Source: Clostridium sp. | GTDB taxonomy: Bacteria > Bacillota > Clostridia > Clostridiales > Clostridiaceae | Direction: 5' to 3' | Length of the DNA stretch: 48,103 nt | Assembly: GCA_031292145.1 (NCBI GenBank) | Contig: JARLHR010000147.1 | Location: 1 to 48,103 of the forward strand | Part shown: positions 8,103 through 34,629 of the stretch, in pieces | Layout of the letters: every line of letters starts with the position of its first letter | How positions within the stretch are numbered: the stretch's first letter is position 1 | Position numbers and translations under genes: made by a program | Notes under the pieces: generated by a model | The model's input: the letters and a program-made list of their open reading frames with translations, nothing else | Databases searched by the model: none | What the model was told of the DNA's origin: nothing

Positions 8103-10001
8103 TTATTTTCTGGGTAATAATTCAATCCACCTGGATATTATTTTCTTATATTCAAATAGTTTGATTTTATTATTATAATAGATGATTTCAATCTTATGGA
8201 TTAATGAATCTTCAAAATCGGTAGGTGAAATATTTTTATTAAAGTTTTGTAAGAAAACTAGGAGTTCTGATTTATTATCTGAGAGAATTAAAGAAGTAAT
8301 GCAAAATATGATTACAGATGGTTGATTGGGCTTCTCTTGTTGGTATCCAAATATTCTTTTTCTAAATTTTTCAATTTCCTCTTCTATATTATTCCCATGT
8401 AGTCGTTTTAATACAATGCATTTATAACATTGAGACCACCAGGTATCATTAATGTTAATCGAAAGGTTAAAAGCCGAAAGTGCCTGAGTAAGATTGGCAA
8501 GATTATTCGTATCCCTATTGGCCCACCACATGTCCAGATGCCATCTTCCTAGCAAATAATAATAATGCGATGAATTCTTTTGGGAGGCAGGAACATGATT
8601 TAAATGTTGTCGTATATTTTTAACCGCAAGGCTAAACTTAGTCCTATCATTCCGATATTCATGTGTCTCTCTTAGGCTACTTTCAAATAGTACAAATCTG
8701 CAAATTGCTTTTTGTTCGTCGTCAAGTTCGGTGTCATCTAGACCCTCAATTATTTCAGTAATTCTTACCCAATTTTTATCACGCATATTATATCGTAAAA
8801 CATGCTTTAATATTTTAGGCTGCGCACCATATTTATCATAATAAACCTCAGCTTTATTTAATCCTTCTCGAAAATCGTCATTCTCATAAAGAGTTTGTAA
8901 TTCATAAGCAATTGAATCATAGCAAGGCTCATCTAATTTATCTTCCGGCTTAGAGTAGAATTTGGTTTTTGGCAATATTTTTTTTGTTCGGGGAATTAAT
9001 TCTTTCCAATCAATTATTTTATTATTAAAGAATATTTTACCGTTTTGCCAAAGAGAAGTTAAAGTAATAGAGGGGACATTACTGTCTGACATAATTATTC
9101 TGCATAAATTACCATACCCGAGGGCCCTGCTGAAATATTTATGCTCTTCCCAGTTACCTTCTTTCGCCCTCAATAATAACTCTCCTATCGATTTAAGGAT
9201 TTTATAGAATTCTGTCAGTTCTGAATAATTTTTCCCGTGATAAATTGATCTGTTATTTAATTTTCCTGATGCAGATTCTTCAATTTTTTCTTGTTCATCT
9301 TTATCTCCGAACACACTGTCGTTTTTATTTGTTGTATAGTGTTTATGAATATTAATATTTAGACCCAATTCTCTTTTAAGCCTATTTTCAACCTTTATAA
9401 TACCTTCATCAAATGTCAGGTAATAAAACAAGTGGATTTCTGACTTTTTTAATTTTCTGATCTGGCTGGGGTTTAGTTTTGTTCTTGAATTTATTTCGTC
9501 ATTAATTTCGCCATCGGGTAAAGTCTTATTTAGTAAAGCGTAAAATATAGCAACCAACTGACCGCCACTATTTAAAAAATCATCAAATAGTAGAATGTTA
9601 GTTTTATTATAGTTGGGTAATTTGTCCAATAGTTCTGTTAGAGAAGGGAAATAATGTTTATGTTTATGAAGTTTCGAAGTGATTTTGAATGAACTCTCAT
9701 TTGGCTCTCCAAGCGATGCAATAAAAGATGAATCAAGCGAAATTAAATGTGAAGCTTCTTTTATTGTTTTATCTGTAATATCATCAAATGATAGAAACTC
9801 AATATTTTCTATTAGATGCAGAGGTAATTCTAAATCCTTAAATCCAACTTCATCAAAATTTTTCAACCATCCTATAACTCTTGACTTTGCTTTAATAATG
9901 CCAATTTTTTGAGCATCGATCTCAAAATCTTTCAACCGGTCCGATATTAAATGAATTCTTTTCTCGTTTTTATCAATGAAATTATTAAAAAGCTTTGACA
10001 T
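8103..10001 (-). CDS. PRTase-CE domain protein with TPR-like C-terminus
   Basis: A 632-residue protein. The N-terminal ~330 residues match the PRTase-CE group, predicted conflict-system phosphoribosyltransferases. It has an alpha-helical lead ending in a GWLKNFD segment, an SLGEPNESS loop, then the PRPP-binding loop NILLFDDFLNSGGQLVAIF with paired Asp and GG. The domain closes with the family ending NVPSITLTSLWQNGK and a Trp-containing strand (IIDWKELIPR). Residues about 360-630 are helical repeats (YYLLGRWHLDMWWANR, ALSAFNLSININDTWWSQCYK), a TPR/TRAF-binding-like sensor or scaffold. The membrane protein gene upstream ends only 5 bp away, so the two are probably translated together. The PRTase-CE identity is from remembered family features; enzymatic activity is unproven. 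Confidence 0.75.
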   Translation of the reverse strand: MSKLFNNFIDKNEKRIHLISDRLKDFEIDAQKIGIIKAKSRVIGWLKNFDEVGFKDLELPLHLIENIEFLSFDDITDKTIKEASHLISLDSSFIASLGEPNESSFKITSKLHKHKHYFPSLTELLDKLPNYNKTNILLFDDFLNSGGQLVAIFYALLNKTLPDGEINDEINSRTKLNPSQIRKLKKSEIHLFYYLTFDEGIIKVENRLKRELGLNINIHKHYTTNKNDSVFGDKDEQEKIEESASGKLNNRSIYHGKNYSELTEFYKILKSIGELLLRAKEGNWEEHKYFSRALGYGNLCRIIMSDSNVPSITLTSLWQNGKIFFNNKIIDWKELIPRTKKILPKTKFYSKPEDKLDEPCYDSIAYELQTLYENDDFREGLNKAEVYYDKYGAQPKILKHVLRYNMRDKNWVRITEIIEGLDDTELDDEQKAICRFVLFESSLRETHEYRNDRTKFSLAVKNIRQHLNHVPASQKNSSHYYYLLGRWHLDMWWANRDTNNLANLTQALSAFNLSININDTWWSQCYKCIVLKRLHGNNIEEEIEKFRKRIFGYQQEKPNQPSVIIFCITSLILSDNKSELLVFLQNFNKNISPTDFEDSLIHKIEIIYYNNKIKLFEYKKIISRWIELLPRK

Positions 10002-10006
10002 AATAA

Positions 10007-10405
10007 TTACATCAATAACCTGATGAAGAGAATCATTGATAAATAAATGGTAAAATAAAAGAACATCAGAGTTCTTGAGAATATTGCACTAATCCAAAGA
10101 TTTTTATATCCTTTAAATTCATCTGTATCCATATCAAAATCTATTTGCGATTCTTTTAACAAACTTACTTTTTTATACAGCATTCTGAACAATCTTTCCT
10201 TATATAGGTAAAATCCATCCAGTATCCATAATGTTGTTATGGGAATTAGTGAGACAATTGTGATTGTATTATTTTTATCTTTTGCGCCGACAACTAAAAT
10301 TGCCGATACAATAGCCACACACCACTTTTTAATCATAAATGAATTTCCAGACAATCGCTCAATTATATTTTGGATAAATTCTAGATGTTTATTTTTATTT
10401 TCCAT
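10007..10405 (-). CDS. Small membrane protein, putative partner of PRTase-CE
   Basis: A 132-residue protein. Two hydrophobic helices sit close together (WCVAIVSAILVVGA and a second from about residue 48 ending TLWILDGFYL). A YKERLFRMLYKKV amphipathic linker follows, then a third strongly hydrophobic C-terminal helix (LMFFYFTIYLSMILFI). The KHLEFIQNIIERL start and the 'WxLDxxYLxxERLFRxLYxxV' pattern recur in small membrane proteins of bacterial defence loci, as far as I recall. That resemblance is from memory. It lies between the HAD gene (13 bp upstream) and the PRTase-CE gene (5 bp downstream) on one strand. A membrane-perturbing effector or membrane anchor for the PRTase-CE protein is a reasonable inference. 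Confidence 0.6.
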   Translation of the reverse strand: MENKNKHLEFIQNIIERLSGNSFMIKKWCVAIVSAILVVGAKDKNNTITIVSLIPITTLWILDGFYLYKERLFRMLYKKVSLLKESQIDFDMDTDEFKGYKNLWISAIFSRTLMFFYFTIYLSMILFIRLLM

Positions 10406-10418
10406 GTGTTAATTATTC

Positions 10419-11033
10419 TTAATTATTTGGTAAATAATTATGCTTGATCAGAATATCTTTTAATTCATTATAATTTTTTGCTAAATAGTCAGGCTTTTCC
10501 TCCCGGATCTTCTCGATTGAATCATAACCCCAGCATGTGGCAATAACGGGAATTCCTATTCCTTTGCAAATAATTATATCTCTGACTGTGTCAGTTATAT
10601 AGGTAATCTCGTGTGTCATTTGAATGTTTTGCAGAATATCTTCTTTATGACCATTATTGTAACCATAGATTCTATCAAATAAGATTTGGGATTTTCCTAA
10701 AATAGATTTTATTGTATCAGTATAAGTTGACGAAACTATAAGGGGTTTTTTATATAATTTTGAATAGATATCTAATACTTCAATAAAAAGTCCAATCTCG
10801 CTTGAAGAGTGACGAAGCAATATTCTATAGAGTTCTCTTAAGGTATTCGATTCGGTTTCAGTCACATTATTTAATTCCGAATTTTTTCCTAATAATCGAT
10901 AAAAATCGCTAAAAGAATTTACTTTTTCATAACTGTCAAAAAGAGTGGCAATTTTCTTTGTAATAATTAGTGCTACTTTTAACGAGTTGCCAATAACTCC
11001 ATCAAAATCCGATATAATTATATTTTGATTCAA
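10419..11033 (-). CDS. HAD-superfamily phosphatase
   Basis: A 204-residue haloacid dehalogenase-type hydrolase. Motif I is IIISDFDGVIGNS (nucleophile D9, acid/base D11). Motif II is LIVSST, motif III Lys is in NGHKEDILQ, and motif IV is TYITDTVRDI with the metal-binding Asp pair. A helical cap lies between motifs I and II, as in phosphoglycolate phosphatase-like C1 members. It would dephosphorylate a small molecule. A GpgP-like role on glucosyl-3-phosphoglycerate made by the GT81 enzyme is possible but speculative. The start overlaps the end of the upstream methyltransferase gene by 4 bp, indicating translational coupling. Confidence 0.8.
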   Translation of the reverse strand: MNQNIIISDFDGVIGNSLKVALIITKKIATLFDSYEKVNSFSDFYRLLGKNSELNNVTETESNTLRELYRILLRHSSSEIGLFIEVLDIYSKLYKKPLIVSSTYTDTIKSILGKSQILFDRIYGYNNGHKEDILQNIQMTHEITYITDTVRDIIICKGIGIPVIATCWGYDSIEKIREEKPDYLAKNYNELKDILIKHNYLPNN

Positions 11034-11725
11034 TGTATTTTTTGAAATAGATAGTTCGGATTTTTCATAATAATCTTATATCTATTTGTTTTTTTTACTT
11101 TTTTGATAACATTTCTAACTTCCCATTCGGTAAAATCTGCAGAATCATCAAATAAAATAAAACCGTTATTTTCTAAATATTTATCACAATTGTTAAAATC
11201 TCGCTCGACAAAATCGTATTTATGATTACCATCAATGTATGCGAAACTTATTTGTCCACCTAACGCAATATCTCTATCAAACAAATCTTTGCATATACTT
11301 TTTTCCCCCCAACTATCAAAGAAAGTATCAGATGAGACATCCAAAGCATAAGGAATATCGTTTTTACTAAATGTCAACAAATTTTTTATAAGGCTCTCTT
11401 TAATATATTTATCAATTTGCGGATAAGTTAAATCTGATTGTCCTACTAGTTTAGTATAGTCTGAAACGACACGATTATCTAAAGTAATCAGGATATTATT
11501 TCGAAAATGTATTCTTTTAAAATATGTAATTACATTTGCGGATAGTCCACAGAAAGTTCCTATCTCAACAATAGGTTTTTTAGAAGGTAAGTTTTTAATG
11601 GCATAGTTAAAACATAAAATATTTCCATGATGAAGCATCCCGGCATTTATTTTTCTTAAATTCTCAATATAATCATCCTTGTAATGGATTGGATATTTTA
11701 GCGATTTTAAGATTCTTTTAAGCAT
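11030..11725 (-). CDS. Class I SAM methyltransferase (methyltransferase-24/CmcI-like)
   Basis: A 231-residue methyltransferase. The SAM-binding region reads KPIVEIGTFCGLSANVITYF. An acidic end of strand 2 is in LITLDNR, and the metal-type loop is FAYIDGNHKYDFVERDFNNC, followed by NNGFILFDDSAD. The 'YIDGNHxYxxVxxDxxxxxxxLxxGGxxxFDD' layout is the Methyltransf_24/cephalosporin hydroxylase-like pattern. The members often methylate sugars or act in surface polysaccharide and natural-product pathways. It is the first gene of the minus-strand block 11725 to 5927. A Bacteroidota-like -7 element (TATATTTG on the minus strand, 11761-11768) lies about 35 bp upstream of its start. Confidence 0.75.
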   Translation of the reverse strand: MLKRILKSLKYPIHYKDDYIENLRKINAGMLHHGNILCFNYAIKNLPSKKPIVEIGTFCGLSANVITYFKRIHFRNNILITLDNRVVSDYTKLVGQSDLTYPQIDKYIKESLIKNLLTFSKNDIPYALDVSSDTFFDSWGEKSICKDLFDRDIALGGQISFAYIDGNHKYDFVERDFNNCDKYLENNGFILFDDSADFTEWEVRNVIKKVKKTNRYKIIMKNPNYLFQKIH

Positions 11726-12042: not shown

Positions 12043-13008
12043 TTATTCTATTTTTAATTTTTCTTTAGTAGCCTTTATTCCATAAAATTTATATCCCCGC
12101 CCGCCTGTAGATGCTATTTCGAAACTGGCAGTTATACTTTCATTATTTATAGCTTTCTTTATCTTCCTGTTAACTTTTGATATATTCCCCCTGAATGTAG
12201 ATATAGATAATCCGTAATTCTTCTTTTTTATATTTTCAAGCTCCTGTCTGTTCGATTCAAGGCCGGGAAAAAGTTCTGCGTGTAATTCAAGTATTCTGTT
12301 TAAGAAATAGTTTGGAGTAGTTAATCCGAAAAACTTCTCGTCCCCCAGGCCACCCAGAACACGTTCTGCGAAATACATGTAATAGGAAAGCTCAACCGGA
12401 GAAAGTGGAATAGTAATGTCCCCTATAGTCAAACCAGGCCAGTTAATAGTAATTCTTGCTGATGGTATAAGGTCCTTTTTTAGGTTATCCATCTCTTCCT
12501 TAAGACGGATTATTTTAGGCAGGGCTGTATCAATTTTTACAGGAATATTTTCAGATTTACCAAACTTGGGGTCATTGACCTGTACAAGGTTTAGTTTATT
12601 TATTTCAGAGAAATCCCCCGATTCAGCTAATAGGATCCAGCAAACCTGCATGGCTGGTGTTCCTGATGATATAGCTGCAGTATAAGTATGGGAATTTTCT
12701 TTGGGTAGGGCATCCGAAATATTTTTTAACTGAATGTAAATCTGGTTATGGTCGGTAACGCTTTTAACCGGAAATTCGAGAGTGGTAACCTTTTTGGCAA
12801 GTCTTCTTTTCTTTATTTCACTTTTAAGATAGTCTGCAATTTTAAGATAATCTATATCGGAGTTACTGCTTTTTGTCCAAAACAGGATTGTTTCATCAAA
12901 CTTCTGATTTGTTAAAGCGGTAAGTATTGCGCCATCAGTTTTGCCTTTTAGTTCCCCCGCATCATTTGTTCCGATAAATGAGATAAGAATGTTTTTCGCT
13001 TTTGCCAT
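12043..13008 (-). CDS. RtcR-type CARF domain protein with C-terminal winged helix
   Basis: A 321-residue protein. The N-terminal ~180 residues look like a CARF nucleotide-sensing domain of the RtcR kind: a first strand and loop ILISFIGTNDAGEL, and the ligand-loop signature TYTAAISSGTPAMQVCWILL (SSGTPAMQ at 114-121). A linker leads to a C-terminal ~90-residue segment (STFRGNISKVNRKIKKAI, ending STGGRGYKFYGI) resembling a winged helix of response-regulator type. It may sense a cyclic oligonucleotide or a terminal RNA phosphate and bind DNA. No CRISPR array, Cas10, or rtcA/rtcB is present in the window. It is the last gene on the strand of the kinase-regulator-nuclease operon, after a 97-bp gap, so it may be co-transcribed or have its own promoter. 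Confidence 0.65.
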   Translation of the reverse strand: MAKAKNILISFIGTNDAGELKGKTDGAILTALTNQKFDETILFWTKSSNSDIDYLKIADYLKSEIKKRRLAKKVTTLEFPVKSVTDHNQIYIQLKNISDALPKENSHTYTAAISSGTPAMQVCWILLAESGDFSEINKLNLVQVNDPKFGKSENIPVKIDTALPKIIRLKEEMDNLKKDLIPSARITINWPGLTIGDITIPLSPVELSYYMYFAERVLGGLGDEKFFGLTTPNYFLNRILELHAELFPGLESNRQELENIKKKNYGLSISTFRGNISKVNRKIKKAINNESITASFEIASTGGRGYKFYGIKATKEKLKIE

Positions 13009-13105
13009 AGAATAAAATAAATATTTTCCCGATGTTCAAGTTATTAAAAAAATGAAGACATTAGCAATTTTTAATAAGTACCTATAATTAATTCTCAAGA
13101 TAATT

Positions 13106-13783
13106 TCATTCTACCAGTTCCATGTAAGGACCTTTGGCTGTATTATATTTTACAAAGTAAAGCAATTCGACATTACCATTCGATTTATAATTTATCATAT
13201 CCTGTGCAATTCTTTTCCTAAACTTAAAATTATCCTTAAACATCTTTTCCGGGATACCGCACGTATTCCGTCTAATTGAATAATCATCTGAATGATCTGC
13301 AAATACAATAAAACCCGGAATCTCCATTTTAACAAGACGGTTATATTGATTAACATTCTGAAGAAACTTCCTGTAAACAGCTTCATGCATCAAACTGTTA
13401 CCTGAATACACCGGAGGATGAATTCTGTCATCCTTGCCGTTAGTTTTGTGAACCTCATGCTTGGTATAGCTTAAAAACCAGTCATATAGCTTTTTATTGC
13501 TCTCTAGTCTGTACGATAGTTCTGCGGGAAACTTGCTGTCATATGTACCTTTCACTTCAATACCGCAAAGGATATTCCGACCAGAATCAGTAATAGCTAA
13601 ATCAATCTGCTCACCTCCACCGAGTGGGACCTCGGCATGCAGAAAAACCTCTTCGGGCATTAGCTTATACAGACGATACATAATTTCGGAAGCCCAGGTC
13701 CTTTCATGCAGATGGTCGTCAGAATCAAAAACATCAAGAGTAGTATCGATAATACACTTCCTTATTAAATTCTGGTTTATCAT
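13106..13783 (-). CDS. PD-(D/E)XK-type nuclease-like protein
   Basis: A 225-residue protein with a restriction-endonuclease-like core: an N-terminal helix with LHERTWASEIMYRL, a strand with E51 (HAEVPLGGG), D61 in EQIDLAITD, and E76-V-K78 in CGIEVKG. Those are the D...E-x-K residues of PD-(D/E)XK enzymes. The C-terminal half is mixed and unrecognised (PGFIVFADHSDDYSIRR). The expected activity is metal-dependent DNA or RNA cleavage, but the target is unknown. It overlaps the preceding small nuclease-like gene by 4 bp (ATGA-type coupling) and belongs to the same operon as the histidine kinase and response regulator. No methyltransferase accompanies it, so it is unlikely to be an ordinary type II restriction enzyme. 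Confidence 0.65.
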   Translation of the reverse strand: MINQNLIRKCIIDTTLDVFDSDDHLHERTWASEIMYRLYKLMPEEVFLHAEVPLGGGEQIDLAITDSGRNILCGIEVKGTYDSKFPAELSYRLESNKKLYDWFLSYTKHEVHKTNGKDDRIHPPVYSGNSLMHEAVYRKFLQNVNQYNRLVKMEIPGFIVFADHSDDYSIRRNTCGIPEKMFKDNFKFRKRIAQDMINYKSNGNVELLYFVKYNTAKGPYMELVE

Positions 13784-14220
13784 ACTACCTCGTCATTTAC
13801 ATTATGAAGAAATAATTTGCCTTGGTCTGAATTGAAACCAACAGAGTAAAGTAGACATGAATTCTCTATTAATGATCTTATTTCCTTCATCTTCAATATA
13901 TCTTTATTAAGTTCAGATTCTTTAAGATTTGATTTATATTTCAATTCAATAATTACAGCCGGCTTTCTACTTTCCTTGTCTAAAATAAGAATATCAACCT
14001 TGTAAAGTTTGTTTCTTCCTGCTTTCGGTATCCTAATAGTAACTTCGAGAAAGACTTTGATATTGCGATCATTGAAAAACTCATCCCTGAAATCTACATA
14101 CAACCACGACTGCCAGTCTTGCTCATTGTAAACTTGGCGTTTTTTTATGAGTTTTACATTTTTATCAAGGACTTTCTCTACCCTTGATGAATAATTATTT
14201 AAGAGGATCATATTTACCAT
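13780..14220 (-). CDS. Small PD-(D/E)XK-type nuclease-like protein
   Basis: A 146-residue protein with another restriction-like core. Following an N-terminal helical segment with YNEQDWQSWLYVDF, the strand pair KVDILILDKESRKPAVIIELKYK carries D76 and E92-L-K94. The Tyr-Lys that follows is common in this fold. The length suggests a single catalytic domain without a DNA-recognition domain. The gene starts 1 bp after the response-regulator stop and overlaps the next nuclease gene by 4 bp. Tight packing argues that both nuclease folds act together or as a heteromer. An alternative is a catalytically active subunit paired with a recognition subunit. Confidence 0.6.
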   Translation of the reverse strand: MVNMILLNNYSSRVEKVLDKNVKLIKKRQVYNEQDWQSWLYVDFRDEFFNDRNIKVFLEVTIRIPKAGRNKLYKVDILILDKESRKPAVIIELKYKSNLKESELNKDILKMKEIRSLIENSCLLYSVGFNSDQGKLFLHNVNDEVV

Positions 14221-14221
14221 G

Positions 14222-15118
14222 CTAAGACTTTTTTAATTGATACCCTAACCACAAAATAACTTCAAGAATTGCATTAGTACAAGTTTTAATTGTATATGAA
14301 GATAAGCCGGATTCAGGGAAGTTTATAATATTATGAGAACCATAAGTACTGCATACAGCGAAAGTCATTTTAACCAGTTCACATACTGAACCAGTATAAA
14401 ATACTTTGGCAGTGGGTTTATGAGGTTTTTCTTTTGTTCTATTGCCGTCAAGTGCATTATGGACAGCCCAAAAATCAAATGTACTATTTTCACGTACTGC
14501 CTGTACTGCAGGAAAACCTTTCAGGTTATTTGCAGCATGCAATAAAATACCTTCAAGAATCCGTCTTATTTTAGCAAGATTATCACTAGAAATATTAAAA
14601 TCTGATTTATTCTGTTTAATTAGTAGATCAATTAATTGTGCTTCTATCTCTTCAGAAAAAGAAAATTTATTTAATATCGAAAATACTTCTTCATTTGGTT
14701 TAACAACTCTTATCCGGTCTGTTTCTTTTTTTAATGCATCAAATAAATCTTCAATACTATCATTATCCTTAAAATATAACGGTTCCTTTGAACGATAATT
14801 TTTAACGCCATCGTATCCCAATTTGTCCCCTGTTATAATATAACGCGGAATATTTTTATAATTATTATCTAATAATTCTAATGCTTTATTAATAAATTCA
14901 GGATTAGCTACCTTGGCGTCAGAATCATCCAAACCCATAACATCAAGTATTATGCAGTCAATAATATTGGCAACTTTGGGTAAAATCTCCTTCATTTCAG
15001 TAAAGTTTTTGAAATGACGTATAAATATGTCCTTTGATTTAGCTTTATTAACAAAACTAAATGCAAAATCATCATCATCGTCAATTAATAATGCCTGTAT
15101 TTTCACTCGATTATCCAT
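14222..15118 (-). CDS. Response regulator with uncharacterised helical output domain
   Basis: A 298-residue protein. Residues 1-135 are a receiver domain: acidic pocket in LIDDDDDFAF (D13-D17), phosphoacceptor D59 in CIILDVMGLDD, Thr/Ser switch in YIITGD (T96) and a Lys near 111 in SKEPLYFKD. Residues about 145-298 form an alpha-helical domain with LAKIRRILEGILLHAANN, FWAVHNALDGNR and SVCELVKMTFAV. It does not match the usual DNA-binding output domains. A HEPN-like or other all-alpha effector fold is possible, but I see no clear catalytic RxxxxH pair. The gene starts directly after the kinase stop codon (0-bp gap), so kinase and regulator are a cognate pair. Confidence 0.75.
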   Translation of the reverse strand: MDNRVKIQALLIDDDDDFAFSFVNKAKSKDIFIRHFKNFTEMKEILPKVANIIDCIILDVMGLDDSDAKVANPEFINKALELLDNNYKNIPRYIITGDKLGYDGVKNYRSKEPLYFKDNDSIEDLFDALKKETDRIRVVKPNEEVFSILNKFSFSEEIEAQLIDLLIKQNKSDFNISSDNLAKIRRILEGILLHAANNLKGFPAVQAVRENSTFDFWAVHNALDGNRTKEKPHKPTAKVFYTGSVCELVKMTFAVCSTYGSHNIINFPESGLSSYTIKTCTNAILEVILWLGYQLKKS

Positions 15119-16366
15119 TTACTTTGACCCTCCAATATTTGGATAAGGTAAATTAATTACAAATTCTGTCCAGCCATTTTTTGATTTAATCCTTATCTTG
15201 CCTCCATGCATTTTTATAACATTTTTAATATAGCTGCCACCAAATCCCAGACCTTTGCTATGATTGCCTTTACTACCTAAGCGGAAATAATCTTCTTCAG
15301 TTAATTCAAATTTTCTACCATTATTGCTGAATTTAATTGTATTACCATAATCATAATAAGCTTCTATTTTTATTTTCTTATCCTTTATTTCATAATTCTT
15401 AAAACCATGTACTGCAGAATTTTCTATGAGTTGATCTAAAATATTGTAAAAACTATTAGAATTAATGACACATAATAACCAATCTTCAACATTTAGTGTA
15501 AAAGTAATGTCTGGGAATTCCGATTTTTTTGTTTCTAAATACTCCTCTAAAAGATTCTTTAGATTATATATATCAAAATCTTCTTTGTCAAACTCGAGGC
15601 TAACCATTTTATTAGCACTTTTTATATTATTTGTAATTCTTTCACAATATTTCTTCATTCTTTCCATGACACTTTGAACTGTTTCTTTTTGAACAGAGTT
15701 ATTAAAGTCCTCAAAAGATATCTCCTCAGTTTCCAATACACTATCTGATAATAAACCTTTGTTCTTCAAATATAAATATACAGTGTCTATAGTTTCATGA
15801 AGTTGGAAAATAACAGGGTTGATATTATGTGACATCATCCTAATAGTATCTATTTGACCTTCTACTTCATTTTTGAACTTTGTTGCAATGTTTGCGAATG
15901 GAAATTTGCCGTATGCCTTTGAGAATTCCTGTAATAATTCAGATTCTTCATCTTTTAGGAAGTCGGGATGCACTTCTTTCCAGGCAAAAAGTAATTTATT
16001 CTGGTCTGTCATACCCCAAATTAGTTTATCTGCCCGATTAGTTTTGTTCTTGGGTGATTTCCTATTCTTAGGGCTTCTGCCAGTGTGTTCATTTACTCCC
16101 AAACCAAACCTTTTGTCAGGCTGAATATTATACTGTTGATTAATTATTAGGTTAATTCTTGCATTAAGATCCCTTGTTCTTCCAATATAGATTATTTCAG
16201 CACCAACGACCCATTTCTTGTTGTCTTTAAGTGCAGAAGTCTCATAATTAGCAGGAATTAATACAGCATAAATACCACTTGAATTCGGCAGAATAATATC
16301 TTTACCTATACTTGATGCTGGTATAAATCCTTCGAATCCATTATTGGTCAACTCCTGCTTGTTCAT
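15119..16366 (-). CDS. GIY-YIG nuclease-histidine kinase fusion
   Basis: A 415-residue protein with two modules. Residues about 28-160 form a GIY-YIG domain: GIY at 31-33 and YIG at 60-62, with R70 in RDLNARI. The closing helix ESELLQEFSKAYGKFPFAN holds the expected catalytic Glu (142) and Asn (159). Residues 172-415 form a histidine kinase: phosphoacceptor H180 in MMSHNINPVIFQL, a long dimerisation helix, the N box QLIENSAVHGF (N316) and the glycine-rich G2 box GLGFGGSYIKNV, ending in MHGGKIRIKS. There is no transmembrane segment, so it is cytosolic. It heads the operon and is directly joined to the response-regulator gene. GIY-YIG domains normally cut DNA; here the domain may instead sense nucleic acid. 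I know of no characterised protein with this architecture. Confidence 0.8.
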   Translation of the reverse strand: MNKQELTNNGFEGFIPASSIGKDIILPNSSGIYAVLIPANYETSALKDNKKWVVGAEIIYIGRTRDLNARINLIINQQYNIQPDKRFGLGVNEHTGRSPKNRKSPKNKTNRADKLIWGMTDQNKLLFAWKEVHPDFLKDEESELLQEFSKAYGKFPFANIATKFKNEVEGQIDTIRMMSHNINPVIFQLHETIDTVYLYLKNKGLLSDSVLETEEISFEDFNNSVQKETVQSVMERMKKYCERITNNIKSANKMVSLEFDKEDFDIYNLKNLLEEYLETKKSEFPDITFTLNVEDWLLCVINSNSFYNILDQLIENSAVHGFKNYEIKDKKIKIEAYYDYGNTIKFSNNGRKFELTEEDYFRLGSKGNHSKGLGFGGSYIKNVIKMHGGKIRIKSKNGWTEFVINLPYPNIGGSK

Positions 16367-16390: not shown

Positions 16391-16440
16391 GTCAAATATA
16401 AGCGTTATCGTTTGATTTATATTACCGGCAACGTTGCGGC
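16391..16440 (-). promoter_or_regulatory. Putative promoter and palindromic operator of the kinase operon
   Basis: On the minus strand, TATATTTG (16393-16400) fits the Bacteroidota -7 consensus TAnnTTTG and lies about 27 bp before the kinase start. Just upstream is the perfect 10-bp palindrome GCAACGTTGC (16428-16437), embedded in a locally GC-rich patch. It could bind a dimeric regulator such as the CARF-winged-helix protein. Both roles are inference. Confidence 0.35.
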
Positions 16441-16533
16441 AATTTTAATAGAGATGATTTTAGATGTGTTATGTTCTTGAAATACTTTTAACCTGCCTTA
16501 ATATGTTGATACAATATTTAAGTTAGTCCCTAC

Positions 16534-16737
16534 TCAGTGGAGCTTTTTTTTACATATAGGACAATAATGGCCATATATTTCACCATTGATTAAATCAATG
16601 ATTGAGTCATAAACATCCTGAACAATAATTTCATCTTTCAAATCACCGACACAATCTTCGCAAATGAAATGTCCATTAGAACAAGTTTTGGCCCCATATT
16701 CTTCTTTTTCTTCACCGCAATTATCACAAATTCTCAT
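16534..16737 (-). CDS. Small zinc-ribbon protein
   Basis: A 67-residue protein with two Cys pairs near the N-terminus (CDNCGEEKEEYG, then CSNGHFICEDC) and a C-terminal CPICKKKL. It probably folds into two zinc-binding knuckles, RING- or ribbon-like. It lies 167 bp upstream of the kinase operon on the same strand and could be its first gene or an independent regulator. No enzymatic motif is seen. Confidence 0.6.
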   Translation of the reverse strand: MRICDNCGEEKEEYGAKTCSNGHFICEDCVGDLKDEIIVQDVYDSIIDLINGEIYGHYCPICKKKLH

Positions 16738-22491: not shown

Positions 22492-22752
22492 ATTTTATCT
22501 CAAAAATATAGTAAAAGAGTATAACTTTAATTTATTTTGATTACATAGAAAAATAGAGTTAAATATTTATACATTCAAGAATAATTGGATATTTATTGGT
22601 TTTCAGGCGTAGGTCTGTAAGGCTCTTATATGTTTTTTGTCAGGCTGCATAATATAACGTAAAAGATACTTGTGGATACTGGGAGATTGCTTGTTAATGG
22701 ATACATTCGTAATTTAATTTTTGAATATTCTATAGTCAATGCGAAATATGAA

Positions 22753-23817
22753 ATGGTTCATAAGAAGAATAAAACATTAAAAGCTGTTGATTTCTTTTGT
22801 TCTGGGGGGGGAATGACTTATGGTCTAAGGCAGGCTGGTATCAGGGTTTTAGGTGGGATTGATATCGATGTCGCCTGTAAAGAAACATACGAGAAGAACA
22901 ACCCGTGTTCCCAATTCATTCTTGCCGATGCATTCGAATTAAAAGAAAAAAATTTACAAACGATACTCGGGTTAAAAAAGAATGACGACAATCTGATTCT
23001 GGTAGGATGCAGTCCTTGTCAATATTGGTCCATCATTCGTACGGATAAAACGAAATCAAGTAAGTCCAAAAATTTACTTTTAGAGTTCAAAAGATTTGTA
23101 GATTATTTCCATCCTGGATATGTTCTAGTAGAAAATGTACCGGGCATTCTCACCCATAAAAATACCAGTGGACTCGAATGTTTTGTAGTAGCGTTAGAAA
23201 ATAATGGTTACAAGGTTCAATATGATATAGTGAACATGAGCGATTATGGAATTCCTCAATCTAGGCGAAGGTTTTCTCTGTTAGCGACAAGATTGCACGA
23301 GGAACCGATCTTTCCTGTTGCAAATAAAAACTATAAACCAACAGTACGAGAATTTCTGGGTGTTAATCAGGGGTTTATAAAAATAAAACATGGCTACCGG
23401 GATTCTACTGAATTTAATCATTCAACAGCTAGATTAAGTGATAAGAACGAAAAACGATTGAAAAAGACTCCTCATAATGGTGGTTCCTGGTTAGATTGGG
23501 CTAACGATAAAGACCTTAAGCGGCTTCATTACCGAGGTAATGGTTTTATTGACAATTACGGCAGAATAAGTTGGGACAAACCCGCTCCCACAATAACCAC
23601 AAAATTCATTCGTATATCGAACGGAAGATTTGCGCACCCTGAAGAAGATCGGGGTCTATCAATTCGTGAAGGTGCAACTCTTCAAACTTTCCCAAAGGAT
23701 TACATTTTTCCAGCGAAGAGCCTAAATGTTTCGGCGAAAATAATAGGGAACGCAGTTCCACCACTGTTTGCTAAAGGATTGGCGGAAACAATTATTAAAG
23801 CGCATAATCATGAATGA
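22753..23817 (+). CDS. DNA (cytosine-5) methyltransferase
   Basis: About 354 residues from the ATG at 22753. The frame is open to a GTG at 22672, but the paralogue at 36517 starts at the equivalent of 22753 or slightly later. Motifs in order: SAM site AVDFFCSGGGMTYG, catalytic GCSPCQYWS with the PCQ Cys, VLVENVPG (ENV), PQSRRRF, a recognition region with HNGGSWLDW, and the terminal GATLQTFPKDY and IIGNAVPP. It makes 5-methylcytosine in an unknown sequence. The last 8 bp overlap the GHKL ATPase gene, so the two are a unit. It closely resembles DrmMII of the DISARM operon in this window, also through the recognition region. Confidence 0.9.
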   Translation: MVHKKNKTLKAVDFFCSGGGMTYGLRQAGIRVLGGIDIDVACKETYEKNNPCSQFILADAFELKEKNLQTILGLKKNDDNLILVGCSPCQYWSIIRTDKTKSSKSKNLLLEFKRFVDYFHPGYVLVENVPGILTHKNTSGLECFVVALENNGYKVQYDIVNMSDYGIPQSRRRFSLLATRLHEEPIFPVANKNYKPTVREFLGVNQGFIKIKHGYRDSTEFNHSTARLSDKNEKRLKKTPHNGGSWLDWANDKDLKRLHYRGNGFIDNYGRISWDKPAPTITTKFIRISNGRFAHPEEDRGLSIREGATLQTFPKDYIFPAKSLNVSAKIIGNAVPPLFAKGLAETIIKAHNHE

Positions 23818-25486
23818 AGAAATCGAAGATATAACTGCTGAAGACCTAACAATGACATTCGATCCAATGACGATTGAACACCTCGGAGTGCGTATGTACT
23901 CAACATTGCCCCCAGTGTTAGCAGAATTGGTCGCAAATGCTTATGATGCAGATGCTTGCAAAGTAGAAATCATTTTGAAAGATGATAGAACTGAAAAAGA
24001 AATTATCGTTAAGGATAACGGTGATGGGATGACTTTCGATGAAATCAATACCAAATTTTTAAGAATAGGAAGAAATAGAAGAGAAATTGATGGGGATTTG
24101 CCTACACAAAAAGGTAGAAGAACAATTGGTAAGAAAGGACTTGGAAAACTTGCATTTTTCGGTATTGCCCACGAAATAGAGATTACCACTAAGAAAGGTG
24201 GAAAAGAGAATTCTTTTCTGATGAAATGGGAGGATATCAAGGCAGCTACTCAGGCCGAATATAAACCAGTCATTCTTAAAAAAGATGAGGCTTGTTCAAC
24301 AGATGAACAAGGGACCATAATAATACTCCGGGATATCAAAAGAACTAGTAATTTTAATACAGTAAGTATTGCTAATAGTCTTTCAAGAATTTTCATTTTC
24401 GATCCCGATTTCAAAGTATATATTAAGCGTAATAATGAAGACGAATTACCTTTGAACAATGAAATGAAATACGCTGATCTTAAAAAAGAAATCGAGTGGA
24501 ATATTCCGGAAGATGCACTATTTGAATCTACTTACTCCAGAAGAGCTGGAATTACCGGCAAACTTATAACAACAAAAAAGCCAATACCTCCCAAAACCAA
24601 CATGCGAGGTGTTACTCTTTATTCAAGAAAAAAACTAGTAAATCTTCCGGAATATTTTTCCGACAGTACATCCAGTCACTTCTTTTCGTATTTGACCGGA
24701 TGGTTGATGGTTGATTTCATCGATGATTTTGATGATGATGTTATTGCCACCAATAGGCAATCTCTAAATTGGGGCCATCCAGAAATGAAAGAATTACGTG
24801 AATATCTCAGATCGTTATTAAACTGGTTAGAAACAGATTGGAGAAAGAAAAGAGCTGAAATTAGAGAAGCAGATTTGACACAAAAAACAGGTATAAATGT
24901 TCCAAATTGGTTTGCAAAGTTGCCTGAAGATATTAAAAACCTAGTTGAACCTGTGTTGCAAGCTTTAGTTAAAGATAGTGAACTTCCAACTGAAACTACA
25001 AGTAGTATTGTAAGCAATTTTCATCAGATTGTTCCAGAATATCCTAAATACCATTGGCGCTATTTACATCCGGAAGTTCAAAAAATATCCAGATCATATT
25101 ACGAGAATCAAGACTATTATACGGCTTTCCTTGAAACTGCGAAAAGATATGTTAATGCGGTAAGAGAAAAATCACAGATTACCGAGCAGCTAGAGCGAGG
25201 AGTAATGGAGCAAGCTTTCAAACATGATGATCCAATTCTATCTGTTACCGAAAATTTCCGAAAATCAGATGGAAACAATTTTTCTGACCAGACAATTAAA
25301 AACGTAAAAGAAGCACAGAAGATGTTTTCAGTTGGAGCTGTAGTAGGCGGTAGACATGTTATTGCCCATGAAGAAGTTGTGGAACTACGGACGTCAGGAT
25401 TATTCAGGGACGAAGATTGTCTGGATGGATTAAGCTTACTATCTCATCTTTTTTATCGACTTGATAAATCAAAAAAAGTACGTTAG
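23810..25486 (+). CDS. GHKL (Hsp90/MORC-like) ATPase paired with the methyltransferase
   Basis: About 558 residues from the ATG at 23810, overlapping the methyltransferase by 8 bp. The N-terminal GHKL ATP-binding fold shows the N box LAELVANAYDADACKVEI, the G1 box VKDNGDGMTFDEI and the lid RRTIGKKGLGKLAFFGIA. A transducer-like region follows with GVTLYSRKKLVNLP and VIATNRQSLNWGHPE. The C-terminal ~170 residues are helical and unrecognised, ending VVGGRHVIAHEEVVELRTSG, in which R-x3-H-type spacing is reminiscent of but not clearly HEPN (quoted pieces: GGRHVIAHEEVV). Such ATPases occur beside cytosine methyltransferases in restriction-like loci. No separate nuclease gene is attached on this strand, so the restriction mechanism is unknown. 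Confidence 0.75.
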   Translation: MNEEIEDITAEDLTMTFDPMTIEHLGVRMYSTLPPVLAELVANAYDADACKVEIILKDDRTEKEIIVKDNGDGMTFDEINTKFLRIGRNRREIDGDLPTQKGRRTIGKKGLGKLAFFGIAHEIEITTKKGGKENSFLMKWEDIKAATQAEYKPVILKKDEACSTDEQGTIIILRDIKRTSNFNTVSIANSLSRIFIFDPDFKVYIKRNNEDELPLNNEMKYADLKKEIEWNIPEDALFESTYSRRAGITGKLITTKKPIPPKTNMRGVTLYSRKKLVNLPEYFSDSTSSHFFSYLTGWLMVDFIDDFDDDVIATNRQSLNWGHPEMKELREYLRSLLNWLETDWRKKRAEIREADLTQKTGINVPNWFAKLPEDIKNLVEPVLQALVKDSELPTETTSSIVSNFHQIVPEYPKYHWRYLHPEVQKISRSYYENQDYYTAFLETAKRYVNAVREKSQITEQLERGVMEQAFKHDDPILSVTENFRKSDGNNFSDQTIKNVKEAQKMFSVGAVVGGRHVIAHEEVVELRTSGLFRDEDCLDGLSLLSHLFYRLDKSKKVR

Positions 25487-29312: not shown

Positions 29313-31034
29313 ATGCCTCATATGATCCCCAATCAATTTTGGTCGGAAAATAATTTATACGGAGAAAAACAAATATTCCAATTACTTAGTAACTCGGATA
29401 ATTTAGGTGACTACTACATTTTCCATTCTCTTTCGATCATTAATCATCTTCATAAAAGAGAAGGTGAAGCTGATTTTATTATTCTTGGGCCATTAGGTAT
29501 TCTTGACTTGGAGATTAAAGGTGCAAAAAAAATAGTAAGATCCAACGGTTGCTGGGAATATGTAAATAGCAAAAATTCTTACAAATCAATAGAATCCCCT
29601 TTTGCTCAAGCAAAAAATAACATCTATAGTATTACAACATATTTGAAAATAAAAAAATCTCTGGATTTAACTAAACTTCAGGGATATGGAGTTATTTTTC
29701 CTAATTGTACTTTTCAAGAAAAAAGTTCTGAATGGGTTGATTCAATGATTCTTGATGAAAATTGTTTGAATGATATAGAAAATTATCTCCTGGATTTATA
29801 TAAATATTGGCGACTAAAATCTAATTTGGGTGATAATATCTTGCTTTCAAAGGATACAATTGAAATAATAAAGAACTATATGCGAGGAGATTTTAATGCA
29901 CTGGAAAATGTAGCTAATTTCATAAAACGCACAAATCAAATTATCCAGGATTTAACTGAAGAACAATACTCGGTTCTTGAAGCATTAAAATATAATAATA
30001 GACTTTTAATAAAGGGTTTACCAGGAACAGGCAAAACATTATTAGCTATAGAACAGATACATAGAGCATCCAAGAAATACAATAAAGTGCTTTTTCTATG
30101 CTTTAATAGGTTATTGAAAGCGAATATTTACTCACAAGTAAGATCTTTTTCAAATAATATAGAAGTTTTTACAATTGATTCATTATTGTTTAATTCCATT
30201 CATAAAAATATTAAAAAAAGGTTTTCATCAATTGAATTGTTTAAGCAATATGTTTTTGAAAATTTGGAAGAAATAAAAAAATATTTGCCCATTTTTGATT
30301 ATGTAGTTATTGACGAGGGTCAGGATATCCTTAAGGATGGCTACTTTGAAATTATAAATAATATTATTAAAAATAATTTTATTTCAGGATGTTGGTCGAT
30401 TTTCTATGATGATGAAATTCAAAAGATGTTATATGGCTCAGAGGAATTAGAAAGTATTCTTCAAAGACTACAAAAGATGGGCTCGATTTATAATTTAAAT
30501 GTAAATTTTAGAAACCCTGATAGAATAATAAATAGACTTGGAGCAATCACTAAATTACCGATCACTTCTATAAATAAAATCCCATCAGATGAACATAGCA
30601 TCCAATTAGAATATTATAATAATGAACTTGATATTGTAAATTCCATATCTAATAGGCTAAGATATTTTATAGTTGAACAAAAAGTTAAACCAAATTCCAT
30701 TACTATTTTATTTCTTGAAAATAATTTTGGAATTATTAAGATGTTATATGAAAAAACTAAATTATTTATTGATAATTATATAAATTTATCTGAATATACA
30801 GGAAATATTGAAAAAGAAGGTGGAGATCTAATAGTAAAAGAAAGAATGATTCCCTTTTGTACTGTTCATTCGTTTAAGGGTCTGGAAAATAACATAATAA
30901 TAATCCCCTCAATAACCCAAATATCTTCTGATCGAACTAAATTATTATTATATATAGGTTTAACTAGAACTAAAGTTAGAACAATAATATATTTTCACCA
31001 ATCAATTAAGAGTTTATTAAATGATAAATTATAA
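29313..31034 (+). CDS. NERD-domain UvrD/Rep-type helicase
   Basis: About 573 residues from the ATG at 29313, which follows the previous stop; the open frame extends 18 codons upstream with poor context. The N-terminal NERD region (GEADFIILGPLGILDLEIKG) carries E-x-K residues of a nuclease-related domain. The SF1 helicase core follows: Walker A LLIKGLPGTGKTLLAIEQI, motif II YVVIDEGQDI, a Q/VHSFKGLEN motif and the final GLTRTKVRTIIY. Such NERD-helicases occur in several defence operons. The protein may translocate and cut invading DNA alongside DrmA/DrmB. The last 14 bp overlap drmA, showing translational coupling. Confidence 0.75.
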   Translation: MPHMIPNQFWSENNLYGEKQIFQLLSNSDNLGDYYIFHSLSIINHLHKREGEADFIILGPLGILDLEIKGAKKIVRSNGCWEYVNSKNSYKSIESPFAQAKNNIYSITTYLKIKKSLDLTKLQGYGVIFPNCTFQEKSSEWVDSMILDENCLNDIENYLLDLYKYWRLKSNLGDNILLSKDTIEIIKNYMRGDFNALENVANFIKRTNQIIQDLTEEQYSVLEALKYNNRLLIKGLPGTGKTLLAIEQIHRASKKYNKVLFLCFNRLLKANIYSQVRSFSNNIEVFTIDSLLFNSIHKNIKKRFSSIELFKQYVFENLEEIKKYLPIFDYVVIDEGQDILKDGYFEIINNIIKNNFISGCWSIFYDDEIQKMLYGSEELESILQRLQKMGSIYNLNVNFRNPDRIINRLGAITKLPITSINKIPSDEHSIQLEYYNNELDIVNSISNRLRYFIVEQKVKPNSITILFLENNFGIIKMLYEKTKLFIDNYINLSEYTGNIEKEGGDLIVKERMIPFCTVHSFKGLENNIIIIPSITQISSDRTKLLLYIGLTRTKVRTIIYFHQSIKSLLNDKL

Positions 31035-34000
31035 TCTTAAAGCTCGAAATTATATTGTAGATGAGATTAAGAAGGAATTCTGCGGTCCTGGATCGGAAGA
31101 AATTGATTCAGTAAATAATGAAGAGGAAAGGATATCTGAAAATCCAATTAACAGATATTTTTTAGGGGTATTGTATCCTCAAAAGATGGTTGATACGCAA
31201 GAAGATATTGAAGATTTGGATGGTTCTGATAATGACCCAGATGAAAGAGAGGATATGCCTGAAACAGATGATGATGAAGGTATAGAAGAATTTATCATCG
31301 ATGAAAAGGATACCCTTAATGAAGATTTATCAATAACTGCAGCGAATCAGTTTTGTCCCTCCTCCTATGGTATGACTTTTTTCATTAAGGGAAATAATAC
31401 GATTCTGGATTTATCCGTAATGTCTTCAAAATATGTTAAACTAAATAAAGAAGAACAATATGTAAAATTAACCGAAAGTGAGCTTAGTTTAATGCATAAA
31501 TTTGAAGAATTCGGATGTTATAAAATCATTGAAGATAAATTCTATTTTATTTCATTTTTGAATAAAGAGCAAAGAGCGCAACTCAAACATTATTCAAAAA
31601 ACACCTTTTTAGAAAGCTTAACTGAAAATGAAAAACAAAAGTTAATTGAAAAGGAAAATGACAAGAAATTAACAGCTGAAGATCGCCTTAACTATGATAA
31701 AATTTTCCTTCTATTTAGCCGCATTCACGACAAAGCAAAAAATTTTCAACGAAGGGGATATAGAAGAACTCCATTAAAAGAATTTAATAGATCATTTAAT
31801 TTGTCACAAAACAATTTAAATATTTTAGAAGAAATTGATTCAAAAGATTTAACATTACGTATAACTAACAGACCTCCAAATAATGGAATCAAAAAAATTA
31901 CTATTAGTATAATAAATAATAAAAATTTTTCGGGTGATAATAAACCAAAGCCTGAATTATGCTATTTCCAAAATCGTATTCTTGTTAAAATAAATTCAAC
32001 GACCAATTTTGAAGAAATATCTAAAGTACAAATCAGTCAATCAGCTGATCCTTCTGACGCTATGCTTTATTCAAATAAAAAGATATTTGCAGTGGGACAT
32101 GGTTGTTCTGTTAATTGGGATGGTAATAATCCGGTTGAAGTAAATACTGAATTTATTCCATCATATGAAGTCCCACAAACAGACCCTGCTCCGGAAAGAA
32201 TTAATAATTTGGGTCTAAATATTTTTAATATGAAAAATCTTGCTTTTGATAATTTAATGAATAAAAATCAGGTAATATCGGAGCTTAATATTTTTGCAAA
32301 TGATTATTCTAATTGGCTAGGTCAACAGGGAGAGGCAAGTAATGATAAACCCTTTTATGAATACGCCAAGAAGAATATTAATGTTTGTCAAGGAATATGT
32401 AAAAGATTAAGTGAAGGGATAAATCTTCTGCAAGATGTCACTATCTGGAAATCCTTTCAATTGGCAAATGAAGCAATGGTAATGCAAAGGTATAATTCAG
32501 TTAAGTATGTTAATAATCCTAAAAAAATTACTGAACCTTTGAATGAATTGATTAAGGATTATTCCATTATTGAAAATTACATTGCCCAATGGAGACCATT
32601 TCAGCTCGCATTTTTTTTATTAGTTTTGAAATCCATTACCGAACCCCAATCTGAAGACAGAAATATTGCTGATTTATTATGGTTTCCAACCGGGGGAGGC
32701 AAAACTGAAGCTTATCTTGCTGTAATAGCTTTTACATTATTTTACAGAAGGCTAACCGGAGGGAAATTATCTATAGGGACATCGGTAATTATGCGATATA
32801 CGCTTAGATTACTGACAGCCCAACAATTTCAAAGGGCATCCACATTAATTTGCGCTTGTGAAAAAATCAGAGCATTAAATACTGAACTAGGAAAAGAGCC
32901 TATAACTATTGGCTTATGGGTAGGTAGCGCTAATACTCCAAATGATAATCAGACAGCTTGTGAATATGTCAATAAACTTTCAGGGTCTGATACTCAGAAT
33001 ATTATCTCTGAATTTGAAAACCAAAATCCGTTTCAGGTTCAGTTTTGTCCGTGGTGTGGAACAAGTCTTCTAAATCATATTGCCCCCCTACGAAGTGGTT
33101 ATAGGGCGGCAAAAACTGGTGCTAATGGATTTTATTTTAAATGCATTAATCCAGATTGCGATTTTTCTGAAAGATTACCATTACAAGTTGTTGATGAATT
33201 AATTTATAGAAATCCACCTTCTTTATTATTTGCTACGGTTGATAAATTTGCTCGGCTTGCCTGGTTAGGTGAAACTCAAAAAATTTTTGGAATTAAAGGG
33301 ACCGATAGATTTGCTCTTCCCCCAGACCTTATTTTACAGGATGAATTACATTTGATTGCTGGTCCTTTAGGATCAATGTTTGGTTTATATGAAAGTGTAC
33401 TCGATTATCTTTGTTCTTATAATGGGAGAAAACCTAAAATTATTTGTTCTACAGCAACTATTAAACGAGCAGATGATCAGATTGGAGCACTTTTTAACAG
33501 ACGAGTAAATATATTTCCCCCATCAGCTATTATTATTGAAGACTCGTACTTTTCGAAAGAAATTCCAGTCAATTTAAAACCCGGTAGATTATATATCGGT
33601 TTAATTTCCATTGGAAAGACACTTACTACAACACAAGTAAAAATTTTATACACTCTCTTATATCATAATTTAAAAGTGGGAGATTATCTAAGAAAATTAG
33701 AGGATAATCCTGATAATTCTCTAATTACTGATACACTTGATTCATATTTCACAATTATTTCATATTACAATTCGATCAGAGATTTAGGGCATTCAACAGG
33801 ACTATTTAATGATGATGTAAAAGAGAAAATTCAAATGTTACAAGACCGAAGAAGAGAGATTTTTAACAGACCCCTCTGGTTCAAAGAGTTGACAAGTAGA
33901 GAGTCGAGCAAAGAATTGCCTAAAATTCTTAAAACTCTCCAGGATAAAAAATATCCTGAAAAAGAAACTATTCCTGCTATATTTTCAACCAATATGTTTT

Positions 34001-34629
34001 CGGTTGGTGTAGATATATCCCGGCTAAACCTCATGCTGATGAATGGCCAACCTAAAAGTTCTTCCGAATACATTCAGGCTACCAGTAGAATCGGAAGAAA
34101 AGATCCAGGTTTAGTAGTAACCTTATTTGATAATTTTCGACCTCGAGACAAATCGCATTATGAAAATTTTATCTCATTTCATCAAAGTTTCTATAGATTT
34201 GTGGAACCCACGGGTGTTACTCCATTTTCTCTACCTGCAAGAAAAAGAGGAATTCATACATTATTAATTATTATTGCTCGTCTTTTAGGTGGATTAACTG
34301 ATAATCAATCTGCATCAAATTTCACATCAGCAACTATTCCTGATGAATTTATAGAGTTTATATTAGAACGAGTAAAAAAAATCGATTCAGAAGAAACCGG
34401 GCCTATTGAAACTGAAATAAATCATTTTATTGATGAATGGCAAAGTTTAATACATTTACCAAATTTGGTTTTTTCTAATCGAAATAGATTTGGTAATCCT
34501 GATAGTTCGAAAACTCCATTAATGAGAAATTATGGCGAAATATCAGACTCATCTGAAAGAGAAGCTTTCCCCGTTTTGCATTCTTTGCGAAATGTTGACG
34601 TTCCTACAATTTGTAAATTAAAGGATTAA
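31021..34629 (+). CDS. drmA: DrmA, DISARM helicase
   Basis: A 1202-residue protein with the features of DrmA. The N-terminal ~550 residues are specific to the family (acidic stretch near 65-100). A split SF2-like helicase follows: Walker A LWFPTGGGKTEAYLAVIAF, a FCPWCGTSLL zinc knuckle, motif II ILQDELHLIAGPLGS, ICSTATI, and the motif V/VI block FSVGVDISRLNLMLMNGQPK, SSEYIQATSRIGRKDPG and FRPRDKSHYENF. This DELH box and motif VI pattern is distinctive for DrmA. It forms with DrmB the core DNA-sensing and translocating complex. It overlaps the NERD-helicase by 14 bp and ends 4 bp before drmB. Confidence 0.9.
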   Translation: MINYNLKARNYIVDEIKKEFCGPGSEEIDSVNNEEERISENPINRYFLGVLYPQKMVDTQEDIEDLDGSDNDPDEREDMPETDDDEGIEEFIIDEKDTLNEDLSITAANQFCPSSYGMTFFIKGNNTILDLSVMSSKYVKLNKEEQYVKLTESELSLMHKFEEFGCYKIIEDKFYFISFLNKEQRAQLKHYSKNTFLESLTENEKQKLIEKENDKKLTAEDRLNYDKIFLLFSRIHDKAKNFQRRGYRRTPLKEFNRSFNLSQNNLNILEEIDSKDLTLRITNRPPNNGIKKITISIINNKNFSGDNKPKPELCYFQNRILVKINSTTNFEEISKVQISQSADPSDAMLYSNKKIFAVGHGCSVNWDGNNPVEVNTEFIPSYEVPQTDPAPERINNLGLNIFNMKNLAFDNLMNKNQVISELNIFANDYSNWLGQQGEASNDKPFYEYAKKNINVCQGICKRLSEGINLLQDVTIWKSFQLANEAMVMQRYNSVKYVNNPKKITEPLNELIKDYSIIENYIAQWRPFQLAFFLLVLKSITEPQSEDRNIADLLWFPTGGGKTEAYLAVIAFTLFYRRLTGGKLSIGTSVIMRYTLRLLTAQQFQRASTLICACEKIRALNTELGKEPITIGLWVGSANTPNDNQTACEYVNKLSGSDTQNIISEFENQNPFQVQFCPWCGTSLLNHIAPLRSGYRAAKTGANGFYFKCINPDCDFSERLPLQVVDELIYRNPPSLLFATVDKFARLAWLGETQKIFGIKGTDRFALPPDLILQDELHLIAGPLGSMFGLYESVLDYLCSYNGRKPKIICSTATIKRADDQIGALFNRRVNIFPPSAIIIEDSYFSKEIPVNLKPGRLYIGLISIGKTLTTTQVKILYTLLYHNLKVGDYLRKLEDNPDNSLITDTLDSYFTIISYYNSIRDLGHSTGLFNDDVKEKIQMLQDRRREIFNRPLWFKELTSRESSKELPKILKTLQDKKYPEKETIPAIFSTNMFSVGVDISRLNLMLMNGQPKSSSEYIQATSRIGRKDPGLVVTLFDNFRPRDKSHYENFISFHQSFYRFVEPTGVTPFSLPARKRGIHTLLIIIARLLGGLTDNQSASNFTSATIPDEFIEFILERVKKIDSEETGPIETEINHFIDEWQSLIHLPNLVFSNRNRFGNPDSSKTPLMRNYGEISDSSEREAFPVLHSLRNVDVPTICKLKD

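Follow-up and report, generated by a model that had tools for sequence, protein, structure and literature searches.

A kinase-receiver-nuclease cassette and its probable induction by a portable CARF protein

Do five tightly packed genes for a kinase, a receiver, two nuclease-like proteins and a CARF protein make up one defence system, or is the cassette one of many under a more general regulator? The question is raised by a 48,103-nt stretch of contig JARLHR010000147.1 (the window, whose numbering is used throughout), on the minus strand of which an earlier note had described five adjacent genes with gaps of 0, 1, -4 and 97 bp and proposed that they form a new system. The gene layout is as described: a GIY-YIG-like domain fused to a histidine kinase (15119-16366), a receiver protein with a helical C-terminal output (14222-15118), two PD-(D/E)XK-like proteins, PD1 (13780-14220) and PD2 (13106-13783), and an RtcR-type CARF protein whose C-terminus is, by eye, probably a winged helix (12043-13008). 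The residues that had been singled out (H180 of the kinase, D59 of the receiver and the E-x-K motifs) are present in the sequence. A gene that the note had missed lies upstream of the kinase gene on the same strand (16534-16737) and encodes a 67-aa zinc-finger or RING-like protein (zf-RING_5 at 1.2e-4, below cut-off), a core member of the cassette. The reading that we favour, with some confidence, is that a portable CARF regulator controls an inducible cassette of kinase, receiver and nucleases; this cassette probably belongs, as one of several interchangeable modules, to a common immune regulon.

CARF genes and the promoter behind them

The 321-aa CARF protein of the window matches PF06956 (RtcR-type CARF) above the cut-off (6.8e-6), and this profile matches 20 of 20 family members at E values up to 1 (best 1.1e-10); no AAA family was found in the window protein at E up to 1, the NtrC-type AAA+ domain of RtcR included. 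A scan of genome contigs with the C-terminal part of the protein gave 22 loci, for which 19 record titles name Ignavibacteri- or Melioribacter- and one each Labilibaculum, Bacteroidetes and Chlorobiota. Three loci (L023, L039 and L041) were dropped because their contigs end inside CARF, and the remaining 19, together with a second locus of the window's own genome on contig C191 (L013), form the set of 20 used below, from which the window is excluded. The CARF gene of L035 is represented by two open reading frames (209-886 and 949-1170), and its stop was set at 1170.

The cassettes that follow CARF in this set are of many kinds: type I restriction genes at four loci (L021, L024, L031 and L036), DUF1016 at two (L022 and L025), an OLD/NsnB-like ATPase at three (L020, L028 and L035), a reverse transcriptase at three (L026, L034 and L038), a fused GIY-kinase with a receiver at two (L027 and C191), separate GIY-YIG-like, kinase and receiver proteins at three (L029, with two sets, L033, and L032, whose contig ends within the kinase gene), and a small nuclease-like protein at one (L037, PADLOC mREase_II at 1.4e-8), with two loci of unclear type (L030 and L040). 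Because CARF heads so many different cassettes, an exchangeable regulator describes it better than a component of one system. Two genomes besides that of the window carry two CARF loci with different neighbours (L020 and L029 in MAG_55; L023 and L032 in bin-312). Cas genes were not recognised among the neighbouring open reading frames read, in which no systematic search for them was made; Cas10 (PF22335) is over the cut-off in 6 of 21 CARF-bearing draft genomes (the 20 from the scan and the window's own) and below it in the window's genome, which is 96% complete.

What the loci share lies downstream of CARF, the regions upstream of the CARF genes having only A+T-rich words in common. The first clue was a palindrome ahead of the window's kinase gene, detected in a repeat scan, the 10-bp core of which is also present in the gap that separates CARF from the following gene at L029 and L032. 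All post-CARF regions together yielded the box TTGCnRCAAYRTTGC, in which TTGCnR is directly repeated with a period of 11 bp, an arrangement that would fit binding by a winged helix. Within 60 bp after the CARF stop the box is exact at 12 of the 20 loci and is present at 13 with up to one mismatch and at 16 with up to two; the corresponding counts after the 186 other genes of the same loci are three, five and five, and those five boxes all stand at cassette ends. In 12 of the 23 boxes (the window's included) TAnnTTTG, which we take to be the Bacteroidota promoter element, begins at an offset of precisely 42 nt, counted from the start of the box, and in one more at 43 nt; TAnnTTT occurs at 42 nt in 16 of the 23, against a background of 0.0007 per base. 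The boxes are partly non-independent (L013 with L027, L029 with L032).

The window carries this arrangement at 16393-16442 on the minus strand, with the box core (16428-16442), 24 nt and then TATATTTG (16393-16400). This promoter is directly ahead of the kinase gene, and the CARF gene is 3.4 kb away at the far end of the cassette. The exact box pattern occurs once in the window and in none of 100 shuffles. As the consensus had been drawn by eye from these loci, a matrix was built from the 16 post-CARF boxes without the window; it ranks 16393-16442 as the best site of the window at 36.9 bits, with 13.9 bits for the next non-overlapping site and leave-one-out scores of 18.9-34.9 bits for the 16 boxes themselves. 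Four other contigs of the same genome, picked because earlier matches named them and so not random, supply 330 kb in which there are no exact boxes and the best site scores 14.6 bits. The CARF-type promoter on the cassette is the strongest evidence for a single, putatively co-regulated unit.

A search of viral contigs for the box and promoter pattern gave 15 matches, which we read as chance: the CARF profile matches none of these loci, and seven of the sites keep the spacing exactly, of which the ones inspected fall within or across long phage-type open reading frames. Scores at the viral loci (up to 31.3) are no fair control, since the loci were selected by the pattern, and the 330 kb were used instead.

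These distributions bear on whether CARF is the protein that acts at the box. Some other factor might bind it, CARF and the promoter merely travelling together on defence elements, as the 3.4 kb between box and CARF in the window and the four CARF genes that have no box would allow. Set against this, the box adjoins CARF at 16 of 20 loci with unrelated cassettes compared with 5 of 186 other genes, and the 330 kb from elsewhere in the genome are devoid of exact copies; we consider this explanation improbable. It is also unlikely, if less so, that CARF represses the cassette until a ligand relieves the repression. The box is close to the promoter, and the available excerpts on BrxR describe a repressor that heads many defence systems (PMC9122601), but a TTTG-type -33 element is not evident by eye between the box and the -7 element, which makes activation likelier than repression, and RtcR, the nearest family, activates according to the text available (PMC7790460).

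Further boxes on the same strand stand at the far ends of cassettes at six loci (L024:19270, L025:12076, L029:13985, L031:10125, L034:15267 and L038:15613). Five of the six precede additional genes; behind the L025 box the next gene picked on the same strand begins only at 13804, and an untranslated transcript is possible there. Such same-orientation boxes at cassette ends could mean that the box is a recombination site for exchanging cassettes behind CARF, as could the short distance from the CARF stop to the box start, which is 2-7 bp at 15 of the 16 loci (42 bp at L030), and a window gene order that approximates a circular permutation of that on C191. The fixed 42-nt offset to the promoter element in 12 of 23 boxes, cassette-end ones among them, speaks against a recombination site, and we give this explanation very little credence.

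The kinase-receiver cassette and its relatives

The locus on C191 consists of genes for CARF, the GIY-kinase, the receiver, a PD1 remnant and the zinc finger, followed by a PD-(D/E)XK-like protein (by eye) and a 380-aa protein, and L027, from another Ignavibacteria genome, has the same gene order. All three loci found combine CARF, GIY-kinase, receiver and zinc finger, with identities to the window of 56-57% for CARF, 42-43% for the kinase, 33-35% for the receiver and 82% for the zinc finger, the most strongly conserved protein of the fused-form cassette. The zinc finger is present in two of the 21 CARF-bearing genomes searched, namely both that have the GIY-kinase. The window has the zinc finger ahead of the kinase and CARF at the end of the set; C191 and L027 begin with CARF and have the zinc finger downstream of the kinase. 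PD1 is truncated at C191 and has an in-frame stop at L027. The expectation that all five genes would recur in conserved order was therefore not borne out: in the searches made PD2 was found in the window only, PD1 is broken in both relatives and CARF stands at the other end there. Profile surveys and neighbourhoods led us to reject a conserved five-gene system; the proposal that the genes behave as a unit is supported by the co-occurrence of a four-gene core at the three loci found. CARF itself is not specific to this system.

The cassette is rare. Among 398 genomes of the phylum the receiver profile matches two, the window's own and, weakly and partially, G090 (E 5e-4), and the window's own genome is the single match among 98 relatives and among 391 genomes of the class; pair profiles of CARF (E up to 1e-10) and of the kinase (E up to 1e-15) each match 1 of the 398. 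These genome sets overlap, and per genome only part of the first-look candidates was scored. Viral contigs gave no relatives in five protein scans, and a scan of them with the zinc finger gave five loci that match over 24 residues only. Plasmids had no matches for the receiver, the kinase, CARF, the split-form kinase and receiver, PD2, PD1 or the zinc finger, and phages had none for the receiver and PD2.

In the window both halves of a two-component pair are present. The kinase has its ATPase domain (HATPase_c at 2.5e-8, with a match to a solved kinase) and an acceptor histidine, H180, placed by eye in an SHNxxP motif, and the receiver has its fold and acceptor aspartate; the fold search barely covered the C-terminal half of the receiver. 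No match to PF22561 (HisKin-conflict) was found for the kinase at E up to 1, and a structure model of the kinase, with a mean pLDDT (predicted local distance difference test) of 36.3, was left unused. As for the two PD-(D/E)XK folds that had been claimed, the motifs are there by eye; the profile evidence falls short, PD1 matching TnsA_N at 4.9e-4 and 21.0 bits against a cut-off of 26.5 and PD2 matching no family.

Retention of the phosphorelay residues fails across the fused-form family. At C191 and L027 the position of H180 is occupied by K or N and that of D59 by E, and by eye in the alignment the GIY-YIG-like part has R70 replaced by H and E141, presumably the catalytic GIY glutamate, by K. 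The joint loss of H, D and PD1 is consistent with a single pathway or phosphorelay. The two loci are 89% identical in DNA over 2.4 kb, and as they are such close kin their joint decay counts as one event. Between them, the ratio of nonsynonymous to synonymous substitution rates (dN/dS) is 0.13 for CARF, 0.28 for the kinase, 0.54 for the receiver and 0.15 for the zinc finger. Their receivers (L013:3249-4127 and L027:12008-12955) share 45% of amino acids with a dS of 0.83, amid neighbours at 79-92% and a dS of 0.29-0.45, as if an allele had been swapped.

The split cassettes resemble the fused one in architecture. Their GIY_YIG_2 matches (1.5e-4, 0.0076, 0.019 and 0.06) are all below cut-off, HATPase_c matches the L033 kinase at 0.036 and no family matches that of L029, and the receivers match no Pfam receiver family, with a value of 0.017 for the receiver profile against the SLN1 receiver. 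In alignment the kinases keep H in four of four, and the receivers keep D and end in RNxxxH in three of three, an ending that we take to be the HEPN RNase signature; no HEPN profile matches these receivers. Profile comparisons of the GIY, kinase and receiver proteins of the fused form with those of the split form were not significant, so the link is architectural. The split receiver profile matches none of 255 genomes of the class, a set that holds no positive control. At two further loci (L034:10953-15237 and L038:10746-15583) a CARF-headed reverse transcriptase is followed by receiver-like proteins ending in RNx5H. The L038 locus is matched by PF22561 and PF22563: its reverse transcriptase is fused to HisKin-conflict (PF22561 at 5.1e-19), and its last protein has iREC and Response_reg.

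Under an inducible cassette, the C-terminal domain of CARF would bind the box at 16428-16442 and drive the promoter before the GIY-kinase gene. An RNA-damage ligand, proposed in view of the RtcR-type CARF domain and of Cas10 being below cut-off in this genome, would trigger this activation and hence expression of kinase and receiver. The GIY-YIG-like part may sense or cut foreign or damaged DNA and so control autophosphorylation of H180, from which phosphate would pass to D59, a step that the joint loss supports. The helical output of the receiver might then release PD1 and PD2, with DNA degradation, death or dormancy as the outcome.

Several points weigh against this reading. The GIY-YIG domain, whose motif residues are visible by eye in the window, is below every profile cut-off, at 13.9 bits against 22.4 in the window and 16.2 and 16.8 bits against 22.6 in the two relatives. 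Of the claimed CARF-winged-helix protein the CARF domain holds, and its OmpR-like C-terminal wing was seen by eye and matches no profile from PDB or Pfam. Binding of CARF to the box is a prediction from the DNA pattern; L022, L025, L037 and L040 have no box after CARF, and where the box is present it follows the CARF stop more tightly than a promoter requires. The close relationship of C191 and L027 leaves two independent cases of the fused form. The kinase that lacks H is still constrained by its dN/dS, so that either phosphotransfer is dispensable or the kinase has another role, and PD2 has no relatives in the searches made, including plasmids, phages and Pfam.

A wider possibility, which we offer tentatively, is an Ignavibacteria immune regulon in which AAA-less RtcR-like CARF activators act through one type of box, placed 42 nt ahead of the -7 element, on interchangeable cassettes (restriction, reverse transcriptase, ATPase and GIY-kinase-receiver), those distant from CARF included. 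RNA with 2',3'-cyclic phosphates, produced by HEPN-like receivers, would be the CARF signal and would make the circuit self-amplifying and damage-triggered.

Setting of the cassette

The earlier note had placed the genes in a defence-rich element, and the window bears this out. PADLOC matches include DrmA (31021-34629) and DrmB (34634-36451), of DISARM, C5 methylases (22672-23817 and 36517-37575), a restriction-like ATPase (23768-25486) and an OLD/NsnB-like ATPase (37541-39361), and a tyrosine recombinase was read at 46463-47800. The cassette might instead be a stress or DNA-repair two-component system with no part in phage defence, in line with PADLOC naming nothing but the CARF domain among the five proteins. 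Its place beside DISARM and restriction genes, its occurrence in just 1 of 391 genomes of the class and the restriction, DUF1016 and reverse transcriptase cassettes headed by the same regulator all argue otherwise, and we rate this alternative as having a small chance of being right.

Downstream of CARF, a minus-strand cluster at 8103-11725 encodes, by eye, phosphoribosyltransferase/TPR-like, membrane, HAD-like and methyltransferase proteins; its 632-aa protein has no PADLOC match at 1e-5. A perfect TTGACA-17-TATAAT lies within the kinase gene (15563-15591, minus strand), probably by chance.

Comparison with known regulators and systems

Regulators that head defence operons, CARF ones included, are already known; for ten years such a position has been suggested for CARF regulators, chiefly for sigma-54 (RtcR-like) or CRISPR-linked ones. 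What is added here is a defined operator and promoter layout that connects cassettes of many kinds with a small CARF regulator. The target genes of CARF would become predictable from DNA alone, and the question of the ligand of non-CRISPR CARF regulators could be addressed with a single protein and a 50-bp fragment. The combination of GIY-YIG-like kinase, receiver and nuclease is named as a system in none of Pfam, PADLOC and NCBIfam, and titles and abstract beginnings in the open-licence literature yielded no report of the box, of Ignavibacteria CARF regulators heading defence cassettes or of a defence GIY-YIG histidine kinase. Detocs, compared here by its general description only, likewise uses a phosphorelay in defence; it has a buffer protein and other effectors, whereas a GIY-YIG-like part and PD-(D/E)XK-like proteins are found here.

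The excerpts available name HATPase and REC in a figure legend among the domains of systems predicted by DefensePredictor and not validated, and contain no occurrence of CARF (PMC13092281). In the accessible parts of their descriptions, BrxR, a WYL protein (PMC9122601), and CapK/CapS (PMC13373217) likewise place one regulator family ahead of many defence operons; unlike the CARF protein, BrxR and CapS belong to other families, and they repress. Csa3 of archaeal CRISPR systems, as far as the partial text goes (PMC8844856), also joins CARF and a DNA-binding part in one small protein, whereas the CARF here is RtcR-like and Cas10 is below cut-off in 15 of the 21 genomes.

The closest parallel is with RtcR and the RtcR-like CARF-AAA-HTH proteins (PMC4012209, PMC11090510, PMC7790460), which in the sections available share the RtcR-type CARF and a placement beside defence operons, CoCoNuTs among them and RtcR-like regulators adjoining restriction systems (PMC4012209), and are proposed sensors of 2',3'-cyclic-phosphate RNA that switch on defence genes. 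The CoCoNuT authors propose, in the portion at hand, that such RNAs, which are also products of HEPN RNases, turn on defence operons in a feedback loop (PMC11090510). In contrast to RtcR as these excerpts portray it, the regulator described here is a small protein in which AAA+ was not found, it is associated with a Bacteroidota-type promoter and box instead of sigma-54, and it occurs mostly in Ignavibacteria (19 of 22 record titles).

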